Shown in pieces: positions 5,891-24,440 of a stretch of 29,911 nucleotides of DNA. Position 1 is the stretch's first letter, and each line of letters opens with the position of its first letter. This DNA is from a virus. The DNA lies in the IMG/VR virus record IMGVR_UViG_3300003937_000130, positions 1 through 29,911 of that record, one strand, 5' to 3'. Both the position numbers and the translations under genes were made by a program. Below the pieces are notes generated by a model. That model did no database searches and was not told where the DNA came from. It saw only the letters and a list, made by a program, of their open reading frames with translations.

Positions 5891-7933
5891 TTACTTAGCG
5901 AAGTAGTATGTTTCTACACCCAAACCATCAATAAGCTTAGGTATATCCATGAAGTCATGAAGAGTACGTTCTCCATCTTCAAACTGGCTGTGTACATATC
6001 CAGGGTTGTTACGAGATTTATTAACTCCCTTGAAGTACATGCCAGTGATGTCAGTCCCTCTAGGTGTCATGCCAGTATGCTCGTTAGAGATTGTACCAAA
6101 CATGTCCTTATAAGACTGCTTTATAGCTTGAACCAGCTTCCCATCTATCATGTCGTTTATGTTTACCCTAAAGCAGTCATGAACTGATATGATATGTTGA
6201 GCACCCAACTTGTTTAGGTTGAGTATGATGAATCTAGCTAGTTGGCCATCTACAGCTTGCACCATGTTAACAAACCCAGTGCGCCCATGACGACCTAAGT
6301 CTACCTCTTTAGTTTTGAAGGATAGCATATTAAACTTCATATCCTCACCCTTAACTATTAGGTCGACTGTTGGAGCTACCATTCCATACTCAAGCACTCT
6401 GTTGTTGATGTCCACAGCCTTGAAGTATGGCATACGTACCTTAACTCCATCAGGCATTACATGTGTAGTTGCCTTATGAGTGTGTGGTATCCAGATTGGT
6501 AAGCCTTCTGAGTCTTGATCCCAAGTTCCATGAGCATCTTTCACAGCCTTGCGTAAGTTACTTACCTTACCAAAGGACGCTTCAATAGCTTGTGAGAACT
6601 CTTGAGCACGTTCTTCCCAATGTTTGCACACTATCTCAAACACCATCTTGGGATTAGTCTCACGAGTAACTCCTGCACCATTTAACATGCAATCTAGGAC
6701 ACTAAACTCCATGTCAGACTTCTTAACTCTACCGTAGTTATCACACTGGGTAAGAGCTTGGTAGCCTTGTCCATAGAATGTAGCCATGTATGGCTTCTTG
6801 ATGTCTCCACGCTTCACAGCGTTCCAAGACTCATCTAATAGCTTCATAGCACGTTCGTATGCATCATCAACCTTCTGGTTAGTGAATCCACATGCTTCAG
6901 CTAGTGCCTCATCATCTGTCATAAGTGCAGCCAATTGTGGGCCTGAACATTTAGCATCATACCCAAATGCCATGCCTATGTATGGCTTCTCACCTCTTGC
7001 TATCTTAATCAAGATGCCTGAAGCTTTTACAAATGACCACACCTTCTTGATAGGGCTGCGGTTATCTCTGATGTGCTTAATCATATAGTTGGTTAATTCA
7101 TCAAAGCCTAACTTACCAATAAGCTTACTTTCAGCCACTAGTTGCTTCCTATCCATACCACTTACCATGTCGGTCATCTCATCAAGTATTAACTCCATAG
7201 CTAGCTTAACATTATACTCCTTGCTAACACCTGATAAATTCATCATAGCACGAGCCATGTCTGACGCTTGACCATTTGGGCCGTGGCCATCACCTTGGTA
7301 AAGTCTACCACGGTTGTCATCGAAGAACTCACTAACCACTGGTACGTTTCCTTGGTTAACTAGATGATAACAGCCATCTATTACGTACTGCTCAGATGTG
7401 AGTTTGCTCTTGCCCATCTTGGCATAGACTCTTTGGCCTAGTTTGAGCATAACCTCATCTACTTCATACTTGGTAGCCTCTAACACTTCAATAGTGTCAG
7501 TCATACCTTTGCATGTGTTCTTGAGCTTACGTCTACGATCAACTATGCCTAAGTCAGCACTGTGAGGATAGGCTCGTTCCTTCTCAGCATACAAAGCAAC
7601 TAGGTATGGCCCTTCTATGAGCATTCCTTCTTCGTCTCTGGCTACTAGGTTGGAGGCCATTAGTACATCTAACCAATTCTCTATCTCTATGTTAGAGTAG
7701 GTCATACCCTCTATGCCTACGGGTATATTACGTATGGTACGTGTCATTACCCGTTCCCAATTGCTGTGGCTTATCTTTTCCTTCATCTCTATTAAAGCTG
7801 CTGATAAGATAATTGCTTGTATTGGTTGAAGACCTTTGTTGAAGATCACTTGAGTCATTGCACTTACTTTAGCTGTATTGTTCATAGCTTTACTTCCTAT
7901 AGTTGAGTTAGTTAGGTTAGTTGTATTAGTCAT
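5891..7933 (-). CDS. Single-subunit (T7/N4-type) RNA polymerase
   Basis: 680 residues. T7 RNAP motifs are clear: DNRGRLYQ (206-213, T7 DWRGR), DAKCSG (326-331, T7 D537 motif), R375 and K379 before MATFYG (383-388; T7 R627, K631, Y639), and VHDCF (584-588, T7 D812). Both metal-binding aspartates (D326, D586) and the O-helix Tyr are kept, so it should be active. Only about 205 residues precede the DNRGR motif, against about 420 in T7, so much of the N-terminal promoter-opening domain is missing; total size resembles the two N4 RNAPII subunits combined. Promoter choice may therefore need a helper protein. The start ATG 7933 has AAGGAGAACTAACT upstream. Likely transcribes middle or late phage genes. 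A micropeptide gene precedes it and a terminator follows. Confidence 0.93.
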   Translation of the reverse strand: MTNTTNLTNSTIGSKAMNNTAKVSAMTQVIFNKGLQPIQAIILSAALIEMKEKISHSNWERVMTRTIRNIPVGIEGMTYSNIEIENWLDVLMASNLVARDEEGMLIEGPYLVALYAEKERAYPHSADLGIVDRRRKLKNTCKGMTDTIEVLEATKYEVDEVMLKLGQRVYAKMGKSKLTSEQYVIDGCYHLVNQGNVPVVSEFFDDNRGRLYQGDGHGPNGQASDMARAMMNLSGVSKEYNVKLAMELILDEMTDMVSGMDRKQLVAESKLIGKLGFDELTNYMIKHIRDNRSPIKKVWSFVKASGILIKIARGEKPYIGMAFGYDAKCSGPQLAALMTDDEALAEACGFTNQKVDDAYERAMKLLDESWNAVKRGDIKKPYMATFYGQGYQALTQCDNYGRVKKSDMEFSVLDCMLNGAGVTRETNPKMVFEIVCKHWEERAQEFSQAIEASFGKVSNLRKAVKDAHGTWDQDSEGLPIWIPHTHKATTHVMPDGVKVRMPYFKAVDINNRVLEYGMVAPTVDLIVKGEDMKFNMLSFKTKEVDLGRHGRTGFVNMVQAVDGQLARFIILNLNKLGAQHIISVHDCFRVNINDMIDGKLVQAIKQSYKDMFGTISNEHTGMTPRGTDITGMYFKGVNKSRNNPGYVHSQFEDGERTLHDFMDIPKLIDGLGVETYYFAK

Positions 7934-13045: not shown

Positions 13046-14182
13046 CTATGCCACAACAATGGCAATGTCTGTAGAGCTTATTGCTGAGAACTCTCCATCA
13101 TTGATTGTTATGTTACTTGCAGTAAGTGTCTCTCCAAGCTTTCCAATAAGAAGTTGATCTACTTGTGCTGATCCATATTGTGTAATTAACCCAAACATGT
13201 GTGACCAAATTACATCTTCACTAGCTGCTAATGAGTTTACATACTCAGCCAAGGCTGCTCTAATACTATCAACAGCACCTGAAGTATCTTCACTTAGGAA
13301 AGTTATGTTTAGTGCTATCTCTGTATCAACTGATACTGCTTTACTAAAATATATGGTGTGTGGGTGTCCTTGACTGTCTGTAACCTCTACAGAAGTTGAC
13401 CCATAAGTAGGTGTTCCTAAGCTCTTATATGCAAGTATAGTTTCTGCAATCAACTGGTCACTTAGGCTTGTCTCTGTAATGTTGACATGTATATTTCCAA
13501 TAGGCGTACCATCTGGCAGTACTGTAATACCATCATTATTTAGAATCTCAACCTGACTGATGCCTAGTAGTACAAGCTTGCCTCTAAGGGCTTCTGTCAC
13601 ACTATCTGAAGCAGCCATAACAGCTTTGTTACGTTTGTTCCTATACTCTTGCTCAGTCTCTTCGGCTTTACCTATAACACCATCTTCAGCTTGACTGACT
13701 CCATCCCAACCAACTACAGGAGTGTCAATATTTACAATAGTTCCAGCTAGTATGGGAGTTGGGCCAGCTAGTTTAGCTATGGCTCCAACATTCGCTGGTA
13801 TAACTGCATCGAATTCAGTAACAAACTTATTGCCATTTACATCCGATACTTCATTACCAGCAGGCACTACTGTATCAATCGTACCTGTTAGGCTTACTGT
13901 GGCATAACTACGATCTGCATTGTTCTTTTGTATACCTGACATGTATCCTATGTTTCTTAAACCCTGTCCTGTAGCTGTGTTGGGGTTTCCTGAGTTATAG
14001 ACTATGGCTAGTTGTTGCCACATTTGAAATAGCTCATAGCTGTATATTTCAATATTTTGCCCATCAGGAGATTCTGGACTAAAATCAAATCCAGGGTTGA
14101 GTAATTCAAGCCTATCCTTAATTCTAGTTTGTATCTCTTCTAGGGTTGCGGGAGTAAATCCCTCATCCGTTAATCCTGCCAT
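13046..14182 (-). CDS. Baseplate J-like protein
   Basis: 378 residues from ATG 14182 (MAGLTDEGFTPATLEEI...), preceded by GGGGAATCACCTA and overlapping the previous stop (TAATG); an upstream TTG frame is less likely. Hallmarks of the Mu gp47 / P2 gpJ / T4 gp6 family: N-terminal helical region with LNPGFDFSPESPDGQ and QGLRNIGYMSGI, a middle beta domain (AVIPANVGAIAKLAGPTPI), and an ETEQEYRNKRNKAV segment. It forms the ring of wedge proteins in contractile baseplates. Confidence 0.85.
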   Translation of the reverse strand: MAGLTDEGFTPATLEEIQTRIKDRLELLNPGFDFSPESPDGQNIEIYSYELFQMWQQLAIVYNSGNPNTATGQGLRNIGYMSGIQKNNADRSYATVSLTGTIDTVVPAGNEVSDVNGNKFVTEFDAVIPANVGAIAKLAGPTPILAGTIVNIDTPVVGWDGVSQAEDGVIGKAEETEQEYRNKRNKAVMAASDSVTEALRGKLVLLGISQVEILNNDGITVLPDGTPIGNIHVNITETSLSDQLIAETILAYKSLGTPTYGSTSVEVTDSQGHPHTIYFSKAVSVDTEIALNITFLSEDTSGAVDSIRAALAEYVNSLAASEDVIWSHMFGLITQYGSAQVDQLLIGKLGETLTASNITINDGEFSAISSTDIAIVVA

Positions 14183-14544
14183 TAGGTGATTCCCCAAGGT
14201 ACGTCTAGTTCAATCTCTCCATATATAGTCTCGGCTACTAAGTATATAGTTAGCACCCTGTTCACTAGCTCAGACCTAATACTGGTTACTGAGCTAACTC
14301 CTTGGGTGTTTAGTACTATTACTTTTGCCCTATCTTCTATATCAAAGAGATTATAGTTTTTCTTAAAATCGTCAAAGTTTACCCAACCTATTGTGGGGTC
14401 TAACGCCCACTCTCCTAGCCAAGTCTTTAACTTTGATGATACCTGTTGTACTACAAACCTACCATCATTAACCCTATCTATGCCACCATTAGTGGATAGT
14501 ATAAGGTCGTTGCTAGCTTTGTCTAGTGCCATGTATGTTGTCAT
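14182..14544 (-). CDS. gp25-like baseplate wedge protein
   Basis: 120 residues, in the expected place before baseplate J. The central WLGEWALDPTIGWVNF and the DIEDRAKVIVLNTQGVSSV segment are typical of the T4 gp25 / P2 gpW / DUF2634 group, which joins the sheath to the baseplate wedge. The start overlaps the spike gene stop (ATGA), with AGGAG ten bases upstream. An internal Met at residue 5 is an alternative start. Confidence 0.8.
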   Translation of the reverse strand: MTTYMALDKASNDLILSTNGGIDRVNDGRFVVQQVSSKLKTWLGEWALDPTIGWVNFDDFKKNYNLFDIEDRAKVIVLNTQGVSSVTSIRSELVNRVLTIYLVAETIYGEIELDVPWGIT

Positions 14545-15308
14545 GATAGTGGCTCTCCTGTCTGTCCTGCACTTGATCCAGAGGTTATAGGATGTTTGTG
14601 AGTAGATAATTTTGTGCCTTTGCCAGTAACTTCACCAGTAGCCACTACTTCACCACCAGCATTCATATCACCATTAGCACCAATACTAGACTGTGATGTA
14701 ACATCACCTACAAACGATCCTCCACCCTCTACAACTAGCTCTCCTGATAGAGTCATCTTTGGAGTAGTAACTATAACTTCAATTTCTGCCACTACTTCAA
14801 CATTTGGAGCAGTAACCCTGACTAGGATATCACTACTGACATCAATTGACTTATCTTTATTTAAGCTTATAACTTGTGTAGAGTCAGAGTTTCTCCATTG
14901 AGCATCTTCTGCTGAGTACCCTGTGATGGCTCTTGGTATTGTATTTAAACCTACTAGGGCATACCCATCTTGTAGATCAAACATTCTACTAGCCCAAAAC
15001 ATAGGCTGACCACCACTTGTACCTGCTTCATCTTTATCTTCATATAGCCAGTGGTCATAACCTACTTGGCTAAAGAATATGATGCAAGTATCTCCAACTG
15101 CAATAGGCATAGTTAGTGACCAGCCACCTCCAGATAGGACGTGTACTGGTACACCCTCTATTAATCCTCTTGATCTTAAACTTCCCAAATCTTTAGATGA
15201 ATCAAAAATCCTTTCAACACACATTCTTACTGTTGCTGTTTGTGTTTCTGGGAAAAACTCCACTATTCTTCCTGGCATGTTAAAGTAGTAGCCATCAAAA
15301 TTATTCAT
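14541..15308 (-). CDS. Tail spike / baseplate central spike (gp138-like N-terminus)
   Basis: 255 residues. The N-terminal half (MPGRIVEFFPETQTATVRM...GVPVHVLSGGGWSLTMPIAVGD...FSQVGYDHWLY) matches the OB-like domain of Gp138/gpV-type spike proteins. Residues about 150-230 form repeating short beta strands (VRVTAPNVEVVAEIEVIVTT) as expected of a trimeric beta-helix needle. The C-terminus KLSTHKHPITSGSSAGQTG carries a Thr-His-x-His type motif, like the metal-binding tips of spike ends. Function: pierces the outer membrane. AGGAGGAG precedes the start. Confidence 0.85.
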   Translation of the reverse strand: MNNFDGYYFNMPGRIVEFFPETQTATVRMCVERIFDSSKDLGSLRSRGLIEGVPVHVLSGGGWSLTMPIAVGDTCIIFFSQVGYDHWLYEDKDEAGTSGGQPMFWASRMFDLQDGYALVGLNTIPRAITGYSAEDAQWRNSDSTQVISLNKDKSIDVSSDILVRVTAPNVEVVAEIEVIVTTPKMTLSGELVVEGGGSFVGDVTSQSSIGANGDMNAGGEVVATGEVTGKGTKLSTHKHPITSGSSAGQTGEPLS

Positions 15309-15320
15309 AACTCCTCCTTA

Positions 15321-16466
15321 TCAAAACCTAGTTAGTGTTGTTAATGTTGAAACTACTCCAGAGGCAGTTACTGTTGAGCCAGATTGAACCTTCTTACCAT
15401 AGTCTATAGCTCCCTCTACAACATCTCTTGCTGTAGGTAGCGATTCTCCAGGTAAATATGGAAAGTTATCCGCATGACCTGTAATACCTCTAATAATACA
15501 TCCAACTGACATTCCTATCATGGCTTGCCCAATATCATTACCAGACATGTTTATAACTCCATATAGTGCTCCATAGGCAGTCTTCTTTAACCTACCCATT
15601 GCAGTGTCTATGTAGTCTTCAGCAGCCTCTTCGGCTATCTTTGCTCCACCATGTATAAGGCATCCTACTGGGTTTCTTATACCTGTGTTAGTTTTACTTA
15701 GTAAGTCTGTTGGTGTAGATTCTCCACTTACCACTTTGGCAGGGTCTACATATATGCCTTGATCTGTAGAGTGAATTTCATAGGTGTATGATCCAGTTGC
15801 TGGGTCTATTCCTTTATTAATGTATGTAGTTACTCTTGGAATTCCTAAACTATCAACTCCATCAATAGAAAAGTCTTCACCCAAGTTTATAGTTGCTTCT
15901 TGGAAGAATCCTTCTGACTCTGCTGCACTCTCTGAGATATCTACTCCTGCTGCCCTCAAGTCATCAGCCCTAGCTAGTGCCGAGGCTCTAGGCATAGTTT
16001 TCCAACTCACTGGTGAGGGTGCTGCTCCATTTAAGGCAAAGCTTTCTTGAACTTCCTCTCCTGATAGGATGAATTTCATAGAGTCTACCATACCCACCAT
16101 TTGCTTAGTTTTAAAGCTGGTGAATATTACTGGTGTGTATATCCCTAAGTTTGTTAACACTGTTGTGCTTATCTTCAAGTTTACTAGATCGGTAAGTGCT
16201 TTAAATATAGTCTTACTGTTATCTGTTGAAGAGTATTGATATGAGGTATCTCCACCAACTATTAGTGAGTTAGAGATAATTGCCTCTATAACAACTTTCC
16301 TATTGTGTCTTATTGAGTGATTACTGACTTGAAAACCTGACTGTACTGGGAACTTTGTAACTTCTGAGGAAGCTTGGTGTCCCTCTGATACTACCGAGTG
16401 AAACCTTATTACTTGCTCAGAGTCACCAAGCATGTATGTAATTCTTGCTGGTGTTGTCTTTGCCAT
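15321..16466 (-). CDS. Dit-like / baseplate hub-associated tail protein
   Basis: 381 residues. The N-terminal 140 contain HSVVSEGHQASSEVTKFPV, SNHSIRHNRKVVIEAIIS and a later VGMVDSMKFILSGEEV, characters of Dit-like N-terminal domains in tail proteins that cap the tube. The second half (about 220-360) contains poorly conserved beta segments and a hydrophobic Gly-rich helix pair (MGRLKKTAYGALYGVINMSGND, GQAMIGMSVGCIIRG). Position between hub and spike genes fits a ring connecting tube and baseplate. Start ATG 16466 has AAAAGG upstream. Confidence 0.6.
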   Translation of the reverse strand: MAKTTPARITYMLGDSEQVIRFHSVVSEGHQASSEVTKFPVQSGFQVSNHSIRHNRKVVIEAIISNSLIVGGDTSYQYSSTDNSKTIFKALTDLVNLKISTTVLTNLGIYTPVIFTSFKTKQMVGMVDSMKFILSGEEVQESFALNGAAPSPVSWKTMPRASALARADDLRAAGVDISESAAESEGFFQEATINLGEDFSIDGVDSLGIPRVTTYINKGIDPATGSYTYEIHSTDQGIYVDPAKVVSGESTPTDLLSKTNTGIRNPVGCLIHGGAKIAEEAAEDYIDTAMGRLKKTAYGALYGVINMSGNDIGQAMIGMSVGCIIRGITGHADNFPYLPGESLPTARDVVEGAIDYGKKVQSGSTVTASGVVSTLTTLTRF

Positions 16467-16467
16467 A

Positions 16468-17433
16468 TTAAATACCTTTTTGCCAACTTATGGTGGGCAT
16501 ACTTTTACCTTCTGTTGGTGATGTTGCGGTTGCGACAGTTCTCCACTCGCTCGTGTAGTTTGATCCTTTATGCTGTACAGTTAAGGTTTGATACTTTGTA
16601 AACCCTGCTATTGTATCCTTAAGGAACTCGTTAGCTAATTGCCTAGTTTCCTCTGTAGCATCTATTGAAAAGGTAATTAATTTACTAGTGTCTAGGACTG
16701 CTGCTGGCCTAATGCGACCATCTAGGTTACTAGTAACAAACAATGTAGCTGGCCCTATTTTTGGGTTGGCTCTCATATTTGCTACATCTAGTATAATGTC
16801 AGGCTCTTTATCTTGTAGTGACGTTAGTGGAGTCTCTGATAGACTAGGCAAATACATGCAATTAAATCCACTGTCAATATCAGTATATAGCTTAAACCCA
16901 TATTGAAATTGTAGCCTACTTATACACTGTTGAGCAGTTCCTTGCACACTAGCTTGTGGTCTCAAAGATACTTGGTCAACTTTACCTTCTGGAAAAGATT
17001 GGAAAGTTATACCACCCAAGTATCCTATGTCCCTTAATATTTGCTGCATCTGATTTCTTAATGAAGGCCTTTGAACAATAATATCAACTTGCTCTTCTAA
17101 GTATTGTTTACGTAAACTGTCGTAGCAGTATAGGGTTGTTATACTATTTGGTAACCTTTTCTCCTCAAGCACATTGCTAATAAAGAATCTATTAGCAACT
17201 GTGTACTCTTGAGAGCCATGCAACTTAGTCTTTACTGTAACATAGTTTTCACCATTGGATAGTGCTCTAATGGTAGTCTCTTTTAAGTTGTAGATAGTAA
17301 ATGTTCCTCTACTAAATCCATCAACTAGCCTAACATCAAAGTCTACTCTAAGTCCTGCTGCATCAAATACAAGCTTGGTTCCATCTTGGTCTGTTACAGT
17401 TAACATAACTTCCTGACCAAATTCATTACTCAT
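16468..17433 (-). CDS. Baseplate hub protein
   Basis: 321 residues, directly after the tape-measure-position gene, where gpD/gp27/gp44-like hub proteins occur. Visible characters are the N-terminal DGFSRGTFTIYNLKETTIRAL segment, common in hub proteins of this class, ISNVLEEKRLPNSITTLYCYD, and a middle IVQRPSLRNQMQQILRDIGY helix. It would bind the tube end and the spike. Start ATG 17433 has a perfect AGGAGG with TCAA spacer. Assignment rests on motif style plus position. Confidence 0.7.
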   Translation of the reverse strand: MSNEFGQEVMLTVTDQDGTKLVFDAAGLRVDFDVRLVDGFSRGTFTIYNLKETTIRALSNGENYVTVKTKLHGSQEYTVANRFFISNVLEEKRLPNSITTLYCYDSLRKQYLEEQVDIIVQRPSLRNQMQQILRDIGYLGGITFQSFPEGKVDQVSLRPQASVQGTAQQCISRLQFQYGFKLYTDIDSGFNCMYLPSLSETPLTSLQDKEPDIILDVANMRANPKIGPATLFVTSNLDGRIRPAAVLDTSKLITFSIDATEETRQLANEFLKDTIAGFTKYQTLTVQHKGSNYTSEWRTVATATSPTEGKSMPTISWQKGI

Positions 17434-17451: not shown

Positions 17452-20400
17452 TTATTTTGCAAACCCAGTTGCACTATCTTCCTCTAGATATATCTGATCT
17501 CCATTTTCATTAACTTCAGTTATGGTAGAGTCAGGTGTTACTGTTGTGTTTACTTCTATATTGTTTACTACTGGAGTTGACCTATCTATCCTTCCTGTCA
17601 TAACTTGATTTACTCCAGGTTCTGGAATTGCCTCTCCACCATCTCTGGTAAAGTACTGGTAAGCCTCATTTAAGACACCTACTCCTGTACCAACCAAGGC
17701 TCCTGCTGCTGCTCCTACTGGGCCTCCAATAGAGCCAAGTCCACCACCTACGGCAGCAGCCTCTAGTATATCTAATCCAGAGTCAGCTATTCCACCATCG
17801 TCTTTAGTTCCTGTAAGGTATCTTGTAGTTGATGGAATCAGTGAGGCTATGGCAGCGGGTAGACTAAATTTGCCTACTGTACCTGCTGCCCTTTGTAGCA
17901 GGCTCTTGCCTAGTGTTGTCCTAGATGCTGCTGCTGCGGTTACTGTGCCTACTGCACCTGCTACTGCTGCTCCTGTACCACTGCTTGCCACATCTGAAGC
18001 TACTTCTGCTGTTGCTCCGGCTGCTCCAGATAATCTTCCCTGTGAGCTTATGGCTTCTTTAACCTCTCTAATCTCTTGCAAGACATCTTGAACACCTTGC
18101 ATAGTATCTGTAAGGCCTTCCTTATTAATTCTACCATCAACATCCATTACATCGACGCCATCTACACGTTCAAAGGCAGCTAATTCACTACCCATACCGA
18201 ACATGGCTGCAATCTGAGTCTTGGCTTCTGGTGAATCTACACTAAGTATTGCTTCAGTTGCAGTTGATACCCACTCTTGAGCATCTAGATTCTGAAATCC
18301 TGTGCGACTTGGTAGTGCTAAACCTCTTACCTCTGGAAGTGTTGATTTACCACGATCACTCATGATCTTAGTATATGCAGTAGAGGCAAGTGCTTCATCA
18401 TTATATGTTGTTACCAAAGCTCCTGCTCTGCCTATAACTGAGGTGGCATCTCTTTCAGATAAATTACCACGCACTAGGGCTTCTCTCATCCCACGTACAT
18501 TCTCTGTATCTAGTCCAACCTCACCAGCAAGTCTTACTTCATCCATTCCAGAAGTGTTGCCACTAGTAATTAGGCTTCCTATTTCACCCATAATAGTTGC
18601 AGCAGTTCTGGATGCTTTACCAAGCTCTTTAATATTATTGGCAGCTTCTTTAGATGCAGCAGCAGTTTCTTTATCAGCCTGAGCCGACTTGGCTGCTGCT
18701 GCTCTCTCTGCTTCTTGGAATCCAGCAGCAGGGTCTGAGTCAGCCCAAGCTTGTGCTATGGCTTCTGCTTCTTCGGATTTAGCAGTTTCATATCTTCGCA
18801 CCATAGCATCTCCAACATTACCTCCTTTAGTTCGGAAACCTGTCATTGGTACTGGTATGCTTGTATCTCTTATAAAAGATGCAGTTTGTCCAGTTACATC
18901 TACAGGAGTGGCTGATCCGCTATTACGTTCTTCTTTACTTTGTTTTATCATATTTTGCACTCCTCTAGCATCTAGTCCAGCCTCTATGGACTTGGCTTGT
19001 ATACCTGTTTTAAATATGTCTCCTTGCATCTCTACATCAGCTTTAACTATCTCATGTATAGATTCTCCAGTATACTTATCAAGTGCAAAGAAATGTGTTT
19101 GCTCTTCACCAGTTATTGCCATTTGTAATTGCATTTGTGGTGTATACTTAGCAAGGGCTTTACTCATAGCTCCAGTAGTAAGATACTTAAGCTCTAGCAA
19201 TCCCTCATTAGTTTCTCCTGTGGCATCTACTCCTTTTAACCTACCATCTGGAGATGCACCAAACCCTGGAAAATTCTTATTTTGTAGTAATCCGACTTCA
19301 GTATGTTGTAGTTCATTACCCAGTTGCTTCTGTCCACTTAAGAAAGCTTGAAGGGCTAACTTCTCGCCTTCATTGCCTTCTCTAGTATGAGCGTTTCCAA
19401 CAAACTTATCCTTCAGTCCCAACCTCTCTAGGGCTAGGTCTTGAGCTAACTCTTCTGGAGTAAGTCTCCTTCCACTTTCATTTATAAGTCTTGATGAAGT
19501 TATTAAACCTTTACGTGCTGCATACCATTCAGGAGTTCGTTGTCTTATACCTTCTATATTTTGCTCTTCGGAGCTTCCCTCAATAGCCTTTTCTATGAAC
19601 ACATCTACTTCAGAAATAGGGCGCATACCATATGCGCCCTCACGATCAGACCCTTTACCAATTTCCTTAGACATTTCTAGGCTAAACTTAGGTTCTCCTG
19701 CCTCTAAGGATGCTTGTTGAAAATCTAAGTCTTGTATAGCGGCCTCATTTAGCAAGTCCATACGTTCAGCTTGATCACCATAAGGAGTGTCCCAACCAGT
19801 CATTCTAATTTGACCTGCCGACTCATCTCTATTGGTTGGCATTTGCTCTCTTAATATCTTTCTGGCAAACTTAGCTTTGTATAAAGCTTGTCCATGTTGG
19901 TAATCTTGATACCTTGTAGCTTTAGCTTTATCTGCTCCAGAGCTTCCTCTGTTTATGCTTTTAGGAAATAGGCTACCTTTAAGGTTAGGCTTGTGTTCCC
20001 AAAAGGCACTATCTTCAGAGGTTAAGTTATTTTCTTCTGCATATATATCAAAACCTACTCTATCAAAACTAGTTCCTGTATATCCTCTATAGCTTGCAGT
20101 TGGTCTTATACCTGTCACTCCAGTTTCATTTGGTAGTGGCAGTATTGAGGCAGCATCTTCTGAGAATGTTCCATCCAAAAATCTGCTGGTAAGGCTCTGT
20201 TTAACTAAATCTTTCTTTACTCCGTATATAGAGTGTCCTTTAGAGCGTGGGTCTATGTATAACTCAGACAATTCATCAATATATCCAAGGGCTAGTTTTA
20301 AGTCCTCGTCCATCTTTCTTTGTCTGTCTTGTATCAGTGTGTGTCCTGCTAAATCAGAACCTGGCCCCTTATCAAAATACTCCCCAGAAGTGTTTTGGAG

Positions 20401-20865
20401 TACAGATAGGATCATCTTCTTATCTTGTGAAGAGTTAGGTATAGACACTGTTTCATCTATCCTGAGTTGGTTAGCCCATAAAGATGGATCACCTTGTATT
20501 TGTGAACCAAATTCTTCTACTGCTGCTGCTGCATCAAGTGGACTTATTCCACTAATGCTTCCACCTTGGGCAAGTACTTGTATACCTCTTTGTATACCTT
20601 CATCTAAATGTTGTATACGGCTGAGTTGAAGGTCGCCCTGAGTACCTCCTAAATATGCTTCATCTAGGCTATCAATGCCATATGCCTCTGAAGGGAACTC
20701 TTCGTCCTCTGCGATGGTATCAGACATCCTTCTAGGTGCTGGCCTATCCTCTGCGTATACATTAGTTATATTTGGATCAACGTAGGCATTAGCTGTATAC
20801 TTAACATTAGCTTTTCCCCTTCTACTACGCTTACCCATCTTTAGGATAGGTCTTTTATTTGACAT
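17452..20865 (-). CDS. Tape-measure-position protein with embedded YqaJ-type nuclease
   Basis: 1137 residues, between the tail chaperone and hub genes, where the tape measure belongs. Residues about 440-620 look like an intact YqaJ/lambda-exonuclease domain: RTPEWYAARKGLITSSR (443-459), TREGNEGEKLALQAF (494-508, E501), SPDG (538-541, D540), LLELK (556-560, E558 and K560) and YTPQMQLQMAITGEE (575-589). These are the catalytic Glu, Asp and Glu-x-Lys of the PD-(D/E)xK exonucleases. Residues 1-435 are not recognised. About 695-760 are Ala/Glu-rich helix, and 1030-1070 form a Gly/Ala glycine-zipper segment (AAAVGGGLGSIGG, GAAAGALVGTGVG) suited to membrane insertion. The start has AGGAAC upstream. 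Tape measures set tail length and often pass into the cell; a nuclease within one would travel in the virion. A virion internal protein replacing the tape measure is the alternative. Confidence 0.8.
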   Translation of the reverse strand: MSNKRPILKMGKRSRRGKANVKYTANAYVDPNITNVYAEDRPAPRRMSDTIAEDEEFPSEAYGIDSLDEAYLGGTQGDLQLSRIQHLDEGIQRGIQVLAQGGSISGISPLDAAAAVEEFGSQIQGDPSLWANQLRIDETVSIPNSSQDKKMILSVLQNTSGEYFDKGPGSDLAGHTLIQDRQRKMDEDLKLALGYIDELSELYIDPRSKGHSIYGVKKDLVKQSLTSRFLDGTFSEDAASILPLPNETGVTGIRPTASYRGYTGTSFDRVGFDIYAEENNLTSEDSAFWEHKPNLKGSLFPKSINRGSSGADKAKATRYQDYQHGQALYKAKFARKILREQMPTNRDESAGQIRMTGWDTPYGDQAERMDLLNEAAIQDLDFQQASLEAGEPKFSLEMSKEIGKGSDREGAYGMRPISEVDVFIEKAIEGSSEEQNIEGIRQRTPEWYAARKGLITSSRLINESGRRLTPEELAQDLALERLGLKDKFVGNAHTREGNEGEKLALQAFLSGQKQLGNELQHTEVGLLQNKNFPGFGASPDGRLKGVDATGETNEGLLELKYLTTGAMSKALAKYTPQMQLQMAITGEEQTHFFALDKYTGESIHEIVKADVEMQGDIFKTGIQAKSIEAGLDARGVQNMIKQSKEERNSGSATPVDVTGQTASFIRDTSIPVPMTGFRTKGGNVGDAMVRRYETAKSEEAEAIAQAWADSDPAAGFQEAERAAAAKSAQADKETAAASKEAANNIKELGKASRTAATIMGEIGSLITSGNTSGMDEVRLAGEVGLDTENVRGMREALVRGNLSERDATSVIGRAGALVTTYNDEALASTAYTKIMSDRGKSTLPEVRGLALPSRTGFQNLDAQEWVSTATEAILSVDSPEAKTQIAAMFGMGSELAAFERVDGVDVMDVDGRINKEGLTDTMQGVQDVLQEIREVKEAISSQGRLSGAAGATAEVASDVASSGTGAAVAGAVGTVTAAAASRTTLGKSLLQRAAGTVGKFSLPAAIASLIPSTTRYLTGTKDDGGIADSGLDILEAAAVGGGLGSIGGPVGAAAGALVGTGVGVLNEAYQYFTRDGGEAIPEPGVNQVMTGRIDRSTPVVNNIEVNTTVTPDSTITEVNENGDQIYLEEDSATGFAK

Positions 20866-20875
20866 AAGTTTGTTC

Positions 20876-21480
20876 CTAAATAGGTGTTGGTGGTGGCTCT
20901 ATTGGCCTGTTATGGTATTCTCTAATCTCAAGTATCTGGTGCATAACTTCTATATCATATAAAGTGTATGTACAGTCTGATAATTCTTTTAGAGTGATCA
21001 TGGGAGGATTTACTAGTAAAGGCTTTATTAAGTATCCATTTAACTCTGGGTATATACCACTATAGTCAACTGGTATCTTCTCACTCTCTCCTAACCTTGA
21101 TTGGTTTGGGAGACTGCCTTTGCTAAACCTAATTCGAAAAACGAGTTATACTGTGAATACATTACGTGAGCAAACAATTCCATCACTGTATGCATTCCTA
21201 AATCATCTATACTGTTCTCTGTTATCTTTTGTCCGGAAATACGAGCTTGCTGTATAAAGTGCAGCACTAGTTCTGTACTAGCCGTTGCATCATCAGAACC
21301 CATTACAGCTAGTATTGCGGCTGGAACATTAAGGGCTGATATTAAAATTACATTGTCTTGTCCTAAGTACTTACATGCTTGAGTTAAGTTTTCATATTGA
21401 ACCTTAACCGACCAGCTTGGGATATAGATGTCCCTGCCATCGTCTAGTTTTGCTTTATAGTCTTCCACTTGATTCTCCAT
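20876..21480 (-). CDS. Frameshifted tail assembly chaperone (GT-like product)
   Basis: Downstream of the 129-aa chaperone stop, the -1 frame stays open from about 21145 to the stop at 20876-20878, with no usable start before an internal ATG. It encodes LGESEKIPVDYSGIYPEL, then PPMITLKELSDCTYTLYDIE and VMHQILEIREYHNRP. The YDIEVMHQILEIREY style is typical of C-terminal extensions made by -1 frameshifting in tail chaperones of lambda and many myophages. The frames overlap over about 50 bases, with a candidate slip site at 21136-21142. The long product would be about 200 residues and help assemble the tail tube around the tape measure, whose gene follows directly. Confidence 0.65.
21091..21480 (-). 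CDS. Tail assembly chaperone (short, G-like product)
   Basis: 129 residues (MENQVEDYKAKLDDGRDIYI...). A short beta N-terminus is followed by helices (NLTQACKYLGQDN, STELVLHFIQQARI, HTVMELFAHVMYSQYNSFF), the usual make-up of phage tail chaperones. It lies between the tail tube and tape-measure-position genes, the normal place. Its last codons overlap the -1 frame of the extension. Start ATG 21480; the ribosome binding site is weak, perhaps because the hairpin at 21492-21515 lies just upstream. Confidence 0.75.
   Translation of the reverse strand: MENQVEDYKAKLDDGRDIYIPSWSVKVQYENLTQACKYLGQDNVILISALNVPAAILAVMGSDDATASTELVLHFIQQARISGQKITENSIDDLGMHTVMELFAHVMYSQYNSFFELGLAKAVSQTNQG
21136..21142 (-). 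promoter_or_regulatory. Candidate -1 frameshift slip site
   Basis: The minus strand reads G TTT TTC in the zero frame (Phe-Phe near the chaperone C-terminus), close to the canonical X XXY YYZ pattern. It lies just after the last -1 frame stop (TAA) and before the zero-frame stop (TAG), i.e. inside the only window where a shift can work. The first base does not allow perfect re-pairing, so this is a best candidate rather than a certain site. Confidence 0.4.
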
Positions 21481-21532: not shown

Positions 21533-22021
21533 TTATGCGCCTAAGTTATCTCTATCACCACCTGTGTCACGAGCCAGAACTACTTCTTCAAAGGTAATTA
21601 CCCAAGTGATAGTGTTCATGGTTTGTCCACGAGACATTGCAGGTATAGCTAGTATAACTCCATTAGTCAAGGTGGCTTCATCGTTGCCCATGTTGTCCTT
21701 CATCTTACCCTGAATAGGGAAGACCAAAGCACCATCAGCATCAGCTTGAGCTTGGAAGTAGTTTGCATAGTCCTGAAGAATTTTGTTCTCAGGTGCATTC
21801 ATTAATACTGGAAAGGTTAAGTCTCCAGCCCTAATACGTTGCATGCTCACTACCATATCACCATATGCCCCGAACTGAGTTGTTGCAATTGGTGCACGTC
21901 TTACTACATTGATAAGGTTCTCACCTGTACCAAAGCCAGTAATCTTTAAGCTAGAGTAATCTCCTACACTGTCAGGTACTGACAGGATCAGGTCTACGTT
22001 AGCAAAGCTATATTGATACAT
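21533..22021 (-). CDS. Tail tube protein (DUF3277-like)
   Basis: 162 residues, the next gene after the sheath, as in other myophages. Motifs: MYQYSFANVDLILSVPD, GFGTGENLINVVRRAP, YGDMVVSMQRIRAGDLTFPV and MNTITWVITFEEV, characters of the DUF3277 tube family, with the beta-strand pattern expected of a ring-forming tube subunit. Start ATG 22021 has AAGGAATAATTT upstream. Probably one of the most abundant virion proteins; a hairpin follows it. Confidence 0.85.
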   Translation of the reverse strand: MYQYSFANVDLILSVPDSVGDYSSLKITGFGTGENLINVVRRAPIATTQFGAYGDMVVSMQRIRAGDLTFPVLMNAPENKILQDYANYFQAQADADGALVFPIQGKMKDNMGNDEATLTNGVILAIPAMSRGQTMNTITWVITFEEVVLARDTGGDRDNLGA

Positions 22022-22047: not shown

Positions 22048-23520
22048 TTACTCTGAGAAAGAGCCAGATACGGCAACACCATGAAGAGCACCAGCACCAA
22101 CCATTCTATAGGTTAGTCCATTATATACTCTGTTGTTCTTATCACTTGCCGAAATCTCAGCCAGTGAAAGTGAGTCAACTTGGAAGCCTTCAGGTAGGAA
22201 CTCACCACTAGGTAGAAACCCTGGAGCAGACAATCCATTACGGACAGCAGCTTGTAGTGAACGCTCTAGCTGTGCTTTTGCCATGTTAATGCCAGCTTGT
22301 GTAAAAGGAATCTTAGTGCTTTGCTGATATAGTAAGTTAAACATATCAGTTTCATTACGATTCTCTAACCACATAAGTCCATGTGTGGTATCTAGCCAAG
22401 AGCCAGAAGCCATACGAGAGTCAACAAATGCATTAACAGACCCACCAATAACCACTACTGCTGAGCAGTATTTACTTTGCATAGCAGCAAACTCAGAAGG
22501 AGTTAAATCTTCTGCTGGTACGTTAGCAATTTGTTTAAGGTTTAAGGTGATAGTTGAGTTGATGTTAGCAAAGTTTACAGAGGCTGCACGTCCAAATACT
22601 GCTGATCCAGGGTAGGCATTTACAGACCTGCTAAAGACAGAGTGTGTAAATCGTGAGCCTGACAGTTTAAGTACAGAAGCTACATCTGTGTCTACAGAAG
22701 AATCTAGAACATCCAAGTTGTTGGAAGTACTCATGAAGATTTTCTTGTTTGCACTTGCCCAGTCAGAAATCTCTAGGGTAGTGTTTCCATTAGGTGGTGC
22801 TACCGTATGATCACGCAATGTCTTATCAACATCTATGGCTACAAATGCAGTGCCAGATGCCACAGCTTCTGCCAAGGAAACTACAGGAGTCTCAATGTCA
22901 AAGCCTTGTGAAATCTTAGCTACGGTTTGATCTAGCCCTAATGCAACAGCTAGTACGCCACTTGCGAAAGTAATGGTGGAAGCTACGCCAGCCGTAGGTG
23001 AGGTAACTAAAAATCCACCGTTGGCATATACACAAGTAGTTCCAGCTAGACCTACACCAAGTGCAGTTTCAACAGCCGCTGCTACTTCATCCATATCAGC
23101 AGAGGCAGATACATCTACTAGTGTATCAATCTCTGTGCCATCTACTGTAATAACAATTGCAGTGGGTGTTGGTAATAGTGCATTAATAGCTGTTATTGTT
23201 TCATGTGCTCCACCAGCTACAACAGCAGCGGTATCAGTTACATAGTTCATTAGTACTGTAAAGCTACGAGGTGTGGGTGTCTGACCAAAGTATGCAGAAG
23301 CTGCAAGGTAGACTTCCGAAGTAGCTTCCCAATCTAGGCCAACACTTTCAAGTGATGCATATGCCCTAGTACGTTCAGCACTAGAGATATCCATACCAGC
23401 CTTAGCTTGTCCTGGAGCATCAACAGCTAGGAAACCTAGTATGCCAAAGTCACCACTAGACACTCCAGTAGGAGATACAGAGATACTTACATCAGCAAAT
23501 TCAGTAATTTCAATTGCCAT
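22048..23520 (-). CDS. Contractile tail sheath protein (DUF3383-like)
   Basis: 490 residues. Recognised by the DUF3383 style: an N-terminal ISVSPTGVSSGDFGILGFL segment, YASLESVGLDWEATSEVYLAASAYFGQ, PRSFTVLMNY, and a C-terminal region with WLENRNETDMFNLLYQQSTKIPFTQAGI and GFLPSGEFLPEGFQVDS. Sheath proteins of this group wrap the tube and contract on infection. A beta-rich insertion (about 100-200; AIVITVDGTEIDTLVDVS and TFASGVLAVALGLDQ) resembles an outward surface domain. Start ATG 23520, AAGGAATAAAC upstream. Confidence 0.9.
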   Translation of the reverse strand: MAIEITEFADVSISVSPTGVSSGDFGILGFLAVDAPGQAKAGMDISSAERTRAYASLESVGLDWEATSEVYLAASAYFGQTPTPRSFTVLMNYVTDTAAVVAGGAHETITAINALLPTPTAIVITVDGTEIDTLVDVSASADMDEVAAAVETALGVGLAGTTCVYANGGFLVTSPTAGVASTITFASGVLAVALGLDQTVAKISQGFDIETPVVSLAEAVASGTAFVAIDVDKTLRDHTVAPPNGNTTLEISDWASANKKIFMSTSNNLDVLDSSVDTDVASVLKLSGSRFTHSVFSRSVNAYPGSAVFGRAASVNFANINSTITLNLKQIANVPAEDLTPSEFAAMQSKYCSAVVVIGGSVNAFVDSRMASGSWLDTTHGLMWLENRNETDMFNLLYQQSTKIPFTQAGINMAKAQLERSLQAAVRNGLSAPGFLPSGEFLPEGFQVDSLSLAEISASDKNNRVYNGLTYRMVGAGALHGVAVSGSFSE

Positions 23521-23529
23521 GTTTATTCC

Positions 23530-24069
23530 TTAGTTAGTGTTAATTTCTAAAGTATTAAGATATTTATTCTGTTGTTCATCAATGAACTCACCACTTACTG
23601 TCATGGAAGTTATGTTGTTTACAGTTTCTTCATATACTCTTGTTGTGTACATATCTATTGAGAACCCCTTTCGGTATTCCCATTCTTTTGATAGCTTGGC
23701 ATCCTCGCTTGATAAAGGTTCTATTCTAATAAACCCATATCCAGACTCAATCATTGCAGCCTTTATAGCTTCGGAAGTCCAGCCATTCATAATCTTTGAG
23801 CTTGGTATTCCAGTAGTATCAACTACACCAACTCTATATCTTAATTTAACTACACCTCTTGTTCTGTAGGTTGTGGTGTTGTCATTTTGAGCATATACTT
23901 CTTGTGATGGTATACCTATTTGGTATTCTTCTATAACCCTGATATGGGCAAATTCATCTTTAGGTTTAGGGGCATCCCTTTGCCTAGCTGCATAGGAGAA
24001 TTTTGATATTCCTACTATGGTATCTATCATACCTTGCAGTACAAATACATCTGCTTGATCAGGTGTCAT
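23530..24069 (-). CDS. Neck/tail terminator protein (LIC_12616-like)
   Basis: 179 residues from ATG 24069 (MTPDQADVFVLQGMIDT...), with GGAG eight bases upstream and an ATGA overlap with the previous stop; a GTG a few codons earlier is less likely. The middle (RVIEEYQIGIPSQEVYAQND..., RGVVKLRYRVGVVDTTG) and YGFIRIEPLSSEDAKLSKEWEYR resemble the LIC_12616/gp12-like neck terminator family that closes the tail end. Position just before the sheath supports it. Confidence 0.65.
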   Translation of the reverse strand: MTPDQADVFVLQGMIDTIVGISKFSYAARQRDAPKPKDEFAHIRVIEEYQIGIPSQEVYAQNDNTTTYRTRGVVKLRYRVGVVDTTGIPSSKIMNGWTSEAIKAAMIESGYGFIRIEPLSSEDAKLSKEWEYRKGFSIDMYTTRVYEETVNNITSMTVSGEFIDEQQNKYLNTLEINTN

Positions 24070-24440
24070 GGTGTCCACTCCTCAGATCGCTCAATAAGGA
24101 AAGACCAGAATCCATATGTTTGTTCATCAGACCTTTGTAGTACGTTATAGTACTCTCCTTTGAACCCTATCTTATCTGTCATTTCTAAAGTATACTTATC
24201 AGTCAGGTAAATAGTTCTATAGTCACTGTACCTTTGTCCTCCATCTTCTGAATGTAGTGCCTCGCCCTCTTCAAATTGTGAAAACTTGTTTCCGGCTAAG
24301 TTTACTACCTTCATAACAGATGATGTAATGCTACCTTCTATGAATTGATTATTTTCATCATATGTACCATCAGAAATAGAATACTTAGTTACAGATGAGA
24401 GCATTCTTTTATTGAATGCCCTTCTCATATTCATAGTCAT
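24066..24440 (-). CDS. Probable head-tail joining protein
   Basis: 124 residues. Beta-rich: NLAGNKFSQFEEGEALHSED, YSDYRTIYLTDKYTLEMTDKIGFKGEYYNVLQRSDEQTYGFW, a pattern seen in small head-closure proteins. It lies between the DUF4054-like adaptor and the neck terminator. Three Met codons (1, 3, 5) are possible starts; the first has GGAGC upstream. Family not named with certainty. Confidence 0.55.
   Translation of the reverse strand: MTMNMRRAFNKRMLSSVTKYSISDGTYDENNQFIEGSITSSVMKVVNLAGNKFSQFEEGEALHSEDGGQRYSDYRTIYLTDKYTLEMTDKIGFKGEYYNVLQRSDEQTYGFWSFLIERSEEWTP

Follow-up and report, generated by a model that had tools for sequence, protein, structure and literature searches.

The tail operon and the gene at the tape-measure position

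The window analysed here, a viral DNA stretch of 29,911 nucleotides, carries on its minus strand a contractile-tail operon in which a tail completion or terminator gene (23530..24078; phrog_12771) is followed by genes for the tail sheath (22048..23520; phrog_205, E 6e-86), the tail tube protein (21533..22021; phrog_280) and the tail assembly chaperone (TAC; 21091..21480; PF21822, phrog_11820). An open -1 frame of about 90 codons on the 3' side of the chaperone gene (20876..21150) is probably its programmed-frameshift extension. Next come a gene at the tape-measure position (17452..20865), encoding a protein of 1137 aa, and genes for the baseplate hub (16468..17433; phrog_196), a Dit-like tail protein (15321..16466; PF21821), the baseplate spike (14541..15308; PF18352 and a weak match to Phage_spike) and two baseplate wedge proteins (13046..14544; phrog_120, phrog_6, PF04865). 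The order sheath, tube, frameshifted chaperone, this gene, hub and spike had been read from the sequence in a first-pass annotation, and this order is indeed found, with the reservation that the frameshift is supported by the open frame only, a slippery site not having been located.

The gene at 17452..20865 is a single open frame on the minus strand, the plus-strand reading being riddled with stops, and its assignment to a tape-measure protein (TMP) is based on gene order and homologues. A location between the chaperone and hub/Dit genes is that of tape measures, and the product is a long, mainly helical chain with hydrophobic and glycine-rich segments, of which the helical part is modelled with only partial confidence. 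A TMP Pfam match to the window protein was not obtained, and hhalign comparison with three outgroup TMPs gave an E value of 0.52. Tape measures are proteins that diverge fast. A separate tape-measure gene elsewhere, named earlier as an observation that would refute the assignment, was not seen in a 57-kb relative or in the record of the relative 4HA13. The TMP of 4HA13 has 1204 aa. Chasevirus tails are 110–130 nm long (PMC8472413), which corresponds to about 730–870 helical residues; the surplus in the 4HA13 protein is compatible with folded domains and proves nothing.

The segments of the window protein, all encoded on the minus strand, begin with an N-terminal helical domain without an assigned known fold (residues 75–345; 19831..20643), recognised from the AlphaFold model (pLDDT mostly 70–90) and from its conservation in homologues. 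The nuclease domain (residues 445–650; 18916..19533) is followed by predicted long helices at residues 684–708 and 715–783, which may form a ruler-like segment (18517..18816; AlphaFold, low confidence), and by a helical core (residues 784–900; 18166..18516; pLDDT about 76–87) that is common to the TMPs of Nefertitivirinae; the hhalign alignment with those proteins spans the nuclease as well as this core. On the basis of composition and homologues, residues 931–1085 (17611..18075) constitute a Gly/Ala-rich hydrophobic C-terminal region, and overlapping GxxxG repeats at residues 1040–1063 bear out the glycine zipper that had been noticed near the C-terminus. Homologues from Cleopatravirinae possess an SLT transglycosylase near the C-terminus, which is lacking in the window clade.

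A lambda-exonuclease-like domain within the protein

The YqaJ profile PF09588 matches residues 446–587 over profile positions 1–149 of 150 (E 1.3e-10), with a score of 42.1 bits for the window protein and 47 bits in a six-frame search, the curated cut-off being 22 bits, and phmmer retrieved LHK-Exo among PDB chains (E 1.7e-10). The motif series of YqaJ/lambda-type enzymes is present at the residues first proposed: RTPEWYAARKG at 443–453, E501, SPDG with D540, LLELK with E558 and K560, and QMQLQM at 577–582. A single-chain AlphaFold prediction of the domain, built from the window and IMG/VR rows only, reached a pLDDT of 93.3 and a pTM of 0.88. This model could be aligned by VIA-align to LHK-Exo (3sz4; Z 19.3, rmsd 3.2, 178 aligned) and to lambda Exo (3sm4; Z 18.1). 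Structure prediction, suggested earlier as a check, hence returned the PD-(D/E)XK core of lambda Exo.

The residues D540, E558 and K560 align with the catalytic D119, E129 and K131 of lambda Exo, and R451, S458, S538 and Q577 align with its R28, S35, S117 and Q157, the residues of the 5'-phosphate pocket. Across 20 homologues with identities down to 19%, W447, R451, E501, D540, E558, K560, Q577, Q579 and Q581 are invariant, and the catalytic equivalents are also retained in both Cleopatravirinae and Nefertitivirinae. The domain is under purifying selection, with dN/dS values of 0.05–0.20 in the nine pairs whose divergence sufficed for an informative estimate. Judged from sequence and the predicted model, residues ~445–650, as delimited by PF09588, VIA-align, invariant columns and the lambda Exo residue mapping, are a complete lambda-exonuclease/YqaJ domain with an intact active site; a chance match is excluded by the profile score, the predicted fold and the conservation across homologues taken together. 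Catalytic activity is inferred from these features, and we consider it very likely.

Occurrence of the fused nuclease in related phages

The fused nuclease was found in 24/24 related contigs with sufficient downstream sequence, contigs being counted only if 3.5 kb or more of sequence followed the sheath, and in all ten cultured Chaseviridae tested, which represent both subfamilies. Every complete genome searched had exactly one YqaJ, and this was always the fused copy. Among the cultured members, phage flopper has Escherichia coli K-12 MG1655 as its host, and phage MSO-5 has Shewanella oneidensis MR-1. In a separate scan, fused copies lay in tail modules in 45/45 cases, as compared to 0/35 for free-standing copies, which were located away from tail genes. 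No single-strand annealing protein gene was present beside a fused gene, tail genes surrounding all 45 loci as well as the window gene. The window domain thus resembles lambda exonuclease, LHK-Exo and SXT-Exo in fold (Z 18–19), the E/D/ExK set, the 5'-phosphate-pocket residues and PF09588 score, whereas the free members of that family found here are proteins of 203–282 aa and the window domain is internal to a much longer tail protein, encoded in a tail operon without an adjacent annealing-protein gene.

A YqaJ domain was absent anywhere in the outgroup myovirus genomes (Pakpunavirus, Felixounavirus and Vibrio PP270), and among bacterial and archaeal genomes a scan detected no fused prophage copy and a single free-standing YqaJ of 229 aa, on a Gilvibacter MAG contig. 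A whole-protein single-sequence search of IMG/VR returned no relatives because peptide patterns are too divergent, and relatives were recovered through the sheath and then by domain-profile searches. Similarly, tblastn against cultured phages detected free-standing YqaJ enzymes only, the chasevirus copies being so diverged that they surfaced only via the sheath. Other tape measures with this insertion, for which a profile search had been proposed, were in this way found both among environmental relatives and among cultured Chaseviridae. For one contig (L003), the possibility that the N-terminal part is a separate protein was rejected; the frame 5' of the second open reading frame is open with matching residues, which makes a frameshift the likelier reading, probably through an indel that arose in assembly or sequencing, and the case was not counted. 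The lack of YqaJ at G015/L024 was rejected as a case of domain loss, the locus being truncated 991 bp after the sheath.

The window phage is the same kind of myovirus as the Chaseviridae, with which it shares the sheath, the gene order and a T7-like RNA polymerase. Since the sheath is only 30–38% identical, it is regarded as a distant relative, and formal membership is not claimed. The Chaseviridae proteins at the TMP position (PHROG 19855, 'virion structural protein') occupy the same place and carry the nuclease, with a homologous helical core in Nefertitivirinae; the window protein itself gave no match to PHROG 19855. In the tree, the free forms fall to one side (98/97) and the fused forms of environmental origin group together (99/95), with the two chasevirus groups on long branches, so that a single fusion origin is compatible with the tree and not proven by it. 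The better argument for such an origin lies in the homologous flanking core and the identical position. The fusion is read as an old trait, present no later than in the ancestor that the two Chaseviridae subfamilies share.

That the fusion is real can be considered practically certain, the original claim of an exonuclease domain within a tape measure being backed by the family and fold of the domain, its active site, synteny and its distribution over the whole phage family. The first-pass annotation also knew of no such fusion and regarded it as the best candidate for a new system. No published description of a tape-measure/YqaJ fusion was found in the literature, but the feature is not confined to this contig, and the gene is already labelled 'yqaJ' or 'exonuclease' in some database records. 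The fusion accounts for the conflicting names tape measure, tail fiber, exonuclease and hypothetical that the same gene has received across records.

Probable virion carriage and possible role of the exonuclease

The tape measure of the chasevirus 4HA13, which has its YqaJ domain at residues 453–589, comes second among abundant virion peptides in published mass spectrometry (PMC9699118, Fig. 7). Absence of the protein from virions, which would have refuted the proposal, is not met in this relative. Presence of the nuclease part in virions is inferred, as the figure legend names the protein as such, and it is very likely.

In phage 812, TMP trimers contact the DNA end and exit before the DNA (PMC12886913), and lambda-Exo enzymes are ring trimers that work on dsDNA ends (PMC3118119). 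The reading that we prefer, with a probability of roughly 45%, is that the gene encodes the TMP of a Chaseviridae-related contractile-tailed phage with a built-in, virion-delivered, end-specific 5'-3' exonuclease, which most likely processes the phage's own incoming ends. The tail would assemble around the tape measure, nuclease included, so that the virion would contain the nuclease. On ejection, the tape measure would exit the tail ahead of the genome and, since it leaves first, the nuclease would enter the cell in cis with the linear phage DNA, the end of which would be the first dsDNA end that it meets. Resection of the 5' strands would produce 3' single-stranded tails, which RecBCD uses poorly as substrates and which could anneal via long direct terminal repeats, with a gp2.5-like annealing protein, to yield a circular genome. 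The 4HA13 genome has a direct terminal repeat of 3,120 bp, and the 57-kb relative encodes a gp2.5-like annealing protein.

The substrate is inferred, and action on the phage's own DNA ends is plausible without being probable. It is somewhat more tentative that, throughout the family, a tape-measure exonuclease enters together with the genome and reworks the genome ends at a time when no phage gene has yet been expressed, for circularisation, shielding from RecBCD-type nucleases or both. The 57-kb relative has a separate T7-type exonuclease and 4HA13 a separate 5'-3' exonuclease, so that end resection is not obviously missing, which argues against own-end processing, and a nuclease that meets the genome before replication could damage it unless restrained. 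When the size of a folded lambda-Exo ring is set against the width of the tail-tube channel, the ring is probably the wider, so that the domain would have to be monomeric, staggered or unfolded, or else lie outside the lumen; a trimeric form and the location in the particle are inferences as well. The channel measures roughly 4 nm (PMC9022992).

A different target, namely host, plasmid or competing-phage DNA, would make the nuclease a delivered weapon, with which virion carriage and the intact active site are consistent. Bacterial contractile injection systems carry nuclease cargo. However, lambda-Exo enzymes require a DNA end whereas the host chromosome and plasmids are circular, the few copies per virion are little for degrading a chromosome, and the domain is fixed throughout the family, unlike typical conflict genes, which are patchy. 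For SXT-Exo, endonuclease or nicking activity was not detectable (PMC3118119). Attack on host or rival DNA is without positive evidence and must be regarded as unlikely.

Quite unlikely too is a role in assembly, where the nuclease would trim or hold the end of the packaged DNA when head and tail are joined, in the way of T4 gp4 in head completion. Within the tube of phage 812, the tape-measure trimer meets the DNA end with its N-terminal end (PMC12886913), the DNase activity of T4 gp4 is needed in morphogenesis, and a virion-associated homologue was described (PMC7824862). Yet about 440 residues precede the nuclease, so that the N-terminal domain should sit nearest the DNA end. T4 gp4 is also a virion-associated nuclease; it differs in being a small protein of its own in the head, not the tail, and in belonging to a different nuclease subfamily. 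The lack of any other YqaJ in these genomes would fit a protein that, before it is assembled into particles, serves the phage as a cytoplasmic recombination exonuclease of the lambda type, its tape-measure location being incidental. This is very unlikely in view of the T7-type exonuclease, gp2.5-like protein and ligase of the 57-kb relative, the invariable tail-module location of the fused form, the lack of an adjoining recombination gene in the window, and the expected late synthesis with structural proteins. Least credible is a mere DNA-binding or structural element, since invariance of all metal/catalytic residues at identities to ~20% is unexpected if catalysis is irrelevant, even though tape measures touch DNA and activity has not been measured.

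If in-cis end remodelling is true, it would be a previously undescribed, virion-delivered DNA-processing function of a tape measure. These proteins are usually viewed as rulers and channel formers, some with wall- or protein-cutting domains; with a fixed DNA exonuclease inside, the first phage protein at the cell interior may be a DNA enzyme. The early fate of the DNA ends of phages with linear genomes, within the first minutes, is a long-open question that becomes testable. Lysozyme-type tape measures and T5 pb2, with its Zn carboxypeptidase, likewise hold an enzyme that is delivered or exposed at ejection, but their targets are cell wall or protein, whereas that of the window domain is, by inference, DNA. 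SNIPE (PMC13190303) likewise links a nuclease to a tape measure when DNA enters the cell, but it is a membrane nuclease of host defence, which associates with the tape measure of the phage and cleaves the phage's DNA, whereas the window nuclease is owned by the phage.

The nuclease domain and its place in the tail module

The stop-free reading frame at 17452-20865 (minus strand) encodes P0001, a protein of 1137 amino acids. A Pfam search with P0001 returned YqaJ at residues 446-587 (42.1 bits; cut-off 22), and a six-frame search of the whole record gave this gene as its single YqaJ match (47 bits). Among solved structures, LHK-Exo was matched (phmmer, E 1.7e-10), and the exonuclease motifs that the first-pass annotation had assigned to this protein were all found at the residues it named. 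The tape-measure protein contains no cysteine over its entire length.

A full-length model built from 20 homologues is confident at residues 75-345 (helical N-terminal domain), 445-650 (nuclease) and 784-900 (small helical core), and weak elsewhere. The nuclease in this model aligns with lambda Exo (3sm4) and LHK-Exo (3sz4) with VIA-align Z scores of 19.0 and 18.9. A separate model of the domain (pLDDT 93.3, pTM 0.88) scored 17.4-18.1 against lambda Exo entries and 19.3 against LHK-Exo, so that the exonuclease core, for which structure prediction had been proposed as a check, is present in the predicted fold. In a profile alignment, D540, E558 and K560 fall on lambda Exo D119, E129 and K131, and W447, R451, S458, S538 and Q577 on W24, R28, S35, S117 and Q157 (lambda Exo numbers counted from the 1avq chain, with a two-residue offset applied). 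In lambda Exo, R28, S35, S117 and Q157 make up the 5'-phosphate pocket, and on the basis of this correspondence a 5'-end-directed exonuclease is predicted, its activity being inferred from sequence. Residues 931-1085 in the C-terminal part are Gly/Ala-rich with GxxxG repeats, as expected for a putative membrane-active part of a tape measure. The N-terminal helical domain (window 19831-20643) is kept within the clade, and a search with the whole model listed no fold match for this part.

The minus-strand gene order is portal, head maturation protease, major capsid protein, connector proteins, tail terminator, sheath, tube, tail assembly chaperone (followed by an open -1 frame), the YqaJ-bearing gene, baseplate hub, Dit-like protein, spike, two wedges and DUF2612. 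This is the usual contractile-tail order and, judged by gene order, the YqaJ-bearing gene occupies the tape-measure slot, as was originally proposed. Since the window is only a 29.9-kb IMG/VR fragment, its closest long relative, a 57.5-kb contig (G001, which carries L028), was checked for a second tape measure, which would have refuted the assignment. Its sole ORF above 1000 amino acids is the P0001 homologue, and none was found among the larger non-structural ORFs scanned, which are replication, nucleotide-metabolism, packaging or RNA-polymerase genes or lack a tape-measure match. The published annotation of chasevirus 4HA13 contains no second one either.

Searches confined to open-licence papers found no description of a tape measure/YqaJ fusion, which the first-pass annotation did not know to be described either; other papers may mention one. 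While each part is known, their combination, its fixation across the family and its likely delivery appear to be undescribed.

Distribution and evolution of the fused form

A sheath-based search retrieved 48 related environmental loci, and, of those with a full-length sheath followed by 3.5 kb or more of sequence, all 24 contain the nuclease. Full-length aligned homologues are 19-37% identical to P0001, and 15 of the 18 invariant alignment columns (L003 excluded) lie inside residues 445-650. A domain-profile scan, also proposed earlier as a means to find other tape measures with this insertion, gave 80 loci that split cleanly. All 45 fused copies are proteins of at least 670 amino acids (complete ones 1131-1723) whose neighbours include hub, Dit, chaperone or tube genes, whereas all 35 free-standing copies are 203-282 amino acids long without tail genes nearby; no probability is given for this split, because the loci are not independent. 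Each of 16 environmental records contains exactly one YqaJ, in fused form. In L003 (2678-6314) the tape measure is broken into two ORFs; ahead of the second start the frame is open and matches, which points to a frameshift and not to a pair of genes. The longest homologues (L015:3523-8694 and L049:12674-17845, 1723 amino acids) have repeats of some 60 residues separating the nuclease from the core, which suggests that tail length may vary by repeat expansion.

The cultured relatives are Chaseviridae, where YqaJ was found in the same gene in 10 of 10 phages tested (Cleopatravirinae, Nefertitivirinae and Shantouvirus). The VPs20 protein searched by itself scored slightly below the Pfam cut-off, but another search placed it above, and its catalytic residues are kept. 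Seven complete chasevirus genomes have one YqaJ each, fused, and the domain is absent from three other myovirus groups (Pakpunavirus, Felixounavirus and Vibrio PP270). Two chasevirus domains matched 78 and 28 phage records by tblastn, a few of which are free-standing exonucleases. An SLT transglycosylase, a typical tape-measure feature, is also present in seven of the chasevirus YqaJ-bearing proteins (in 4HA13 close to the C-terminus); 4HA13 (L052:38683-42297) and six other chaseviruses thus have two enzymes on one tape measure.

Annotations of the chasevirus gene include tape measure, tail fiber, virion structural protein, exonuclease, yqaJ, putative endonuclease and hypothetical protein. In Aeromonas phage ZPAH14 (OM810291.1, L053:11524-15141) the gene at the tape-measure position is noted as 'D345L'/'yqaJ', showing that automatic annotation caught the nuclease only. 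The sheath of PP952070.1 (Staphylococcus phage Pel53), a record labelled as a phage of Staphylococcus hyicus, is chasevirus-like and 32% identical to that of the window; the host label of this record looks doubtful, the family otherwise occurring on Gammaproteobacteria.

For the nuclease domain, dN/dS was 0.05-0.20 in nine informative pairs, and in most pairs constraint on the domain is at least as strong as on the remainder of the protein; saturation of synonymous sites in several of the pairs makes these values rough. Profile comparison of environmental and Nefertitivirinae proteins gave homology spanning nuclease and helical core (422 columns, E 3e-9). The two chasevirus subfamilies align over the C-terminal core, and environmental and Cleopatravirinae proteins over the nuclease alone. 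The tree is compatible with a single origin of the fused form.

Probable virion presence and possible function

The first-pass annotation proposed virion mass spectrometry, and published data on 4HA13 answer this in part for a relative: where the most abundant virion peptides by LC-MS/MS are listed in a figure legend, the tail tape measure protein comes second (Figure 7, PMC9699118). The 4HA13 record has one gene with a tape measure product (38683-42297), with YqaJ at residues 453-589, so the listing covers this protein; the legend names it as a whole, and the presence of its nuclease segment in the particle is inferred. Chasevirus tails measure 110-130 nm (PMC8472413) and that of 4HA13 116.5 nm. 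With each helical residue spanning about 1.5 angstrom, tail length would take up 730-870 of the 1204 residues of the 4HA13 protein; the remainder would suit folded domains, a fit that is no proof of a ruler function.

The tail channel is occupied by trimers of the tape measure, whose C-termini sit in the baseplate (JBD30, PMC11445458), and in phage 812 the N-termini contact the DNA end and tape-measure exit sets off genome release (PMC12886913). Relatives of lambda Exo assemble as trimeric rings, start from a DNA end and lack endonuclease activity (SXT-Exo, PMC3118119). This shared threefold form is no more than suggestive, and a 4-nm channel looks too narrow for a folded exonuclease ring. The nuclease would be delivered just before the genome and, because the tape measure exits ahead of it, the nearest double-stranded end would be the leading genome end.

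Rival models are that the domain acts as a weapon, in assembly, as a moonlighting recombination enzyme or as a scaffold. The 57-kb relative encodes a T7-type exonuclease, a gp2.5-like annealing protein and a ligase apart from the fused YqaJ; this speaks for a task tied to delivery and makes routine recombination a less likely role. Long terminal repeats are a feature of chasevirus genomes (3,120 bp in 4HA13), and early 5' resection of such repeats by a delivered nuclease would permit circularisation and may blunt RecBCD attack, which is an inference.

Behind its tail genes the window encodes one single-subunit RNA polymerase (5891-7933, minus strand). The 57-kb relative has two (L141:5576-7417 and L142:15695-17479), each about 19-34% identical to that of the window; two T7-like polymerases in one small myovirus are unusual.
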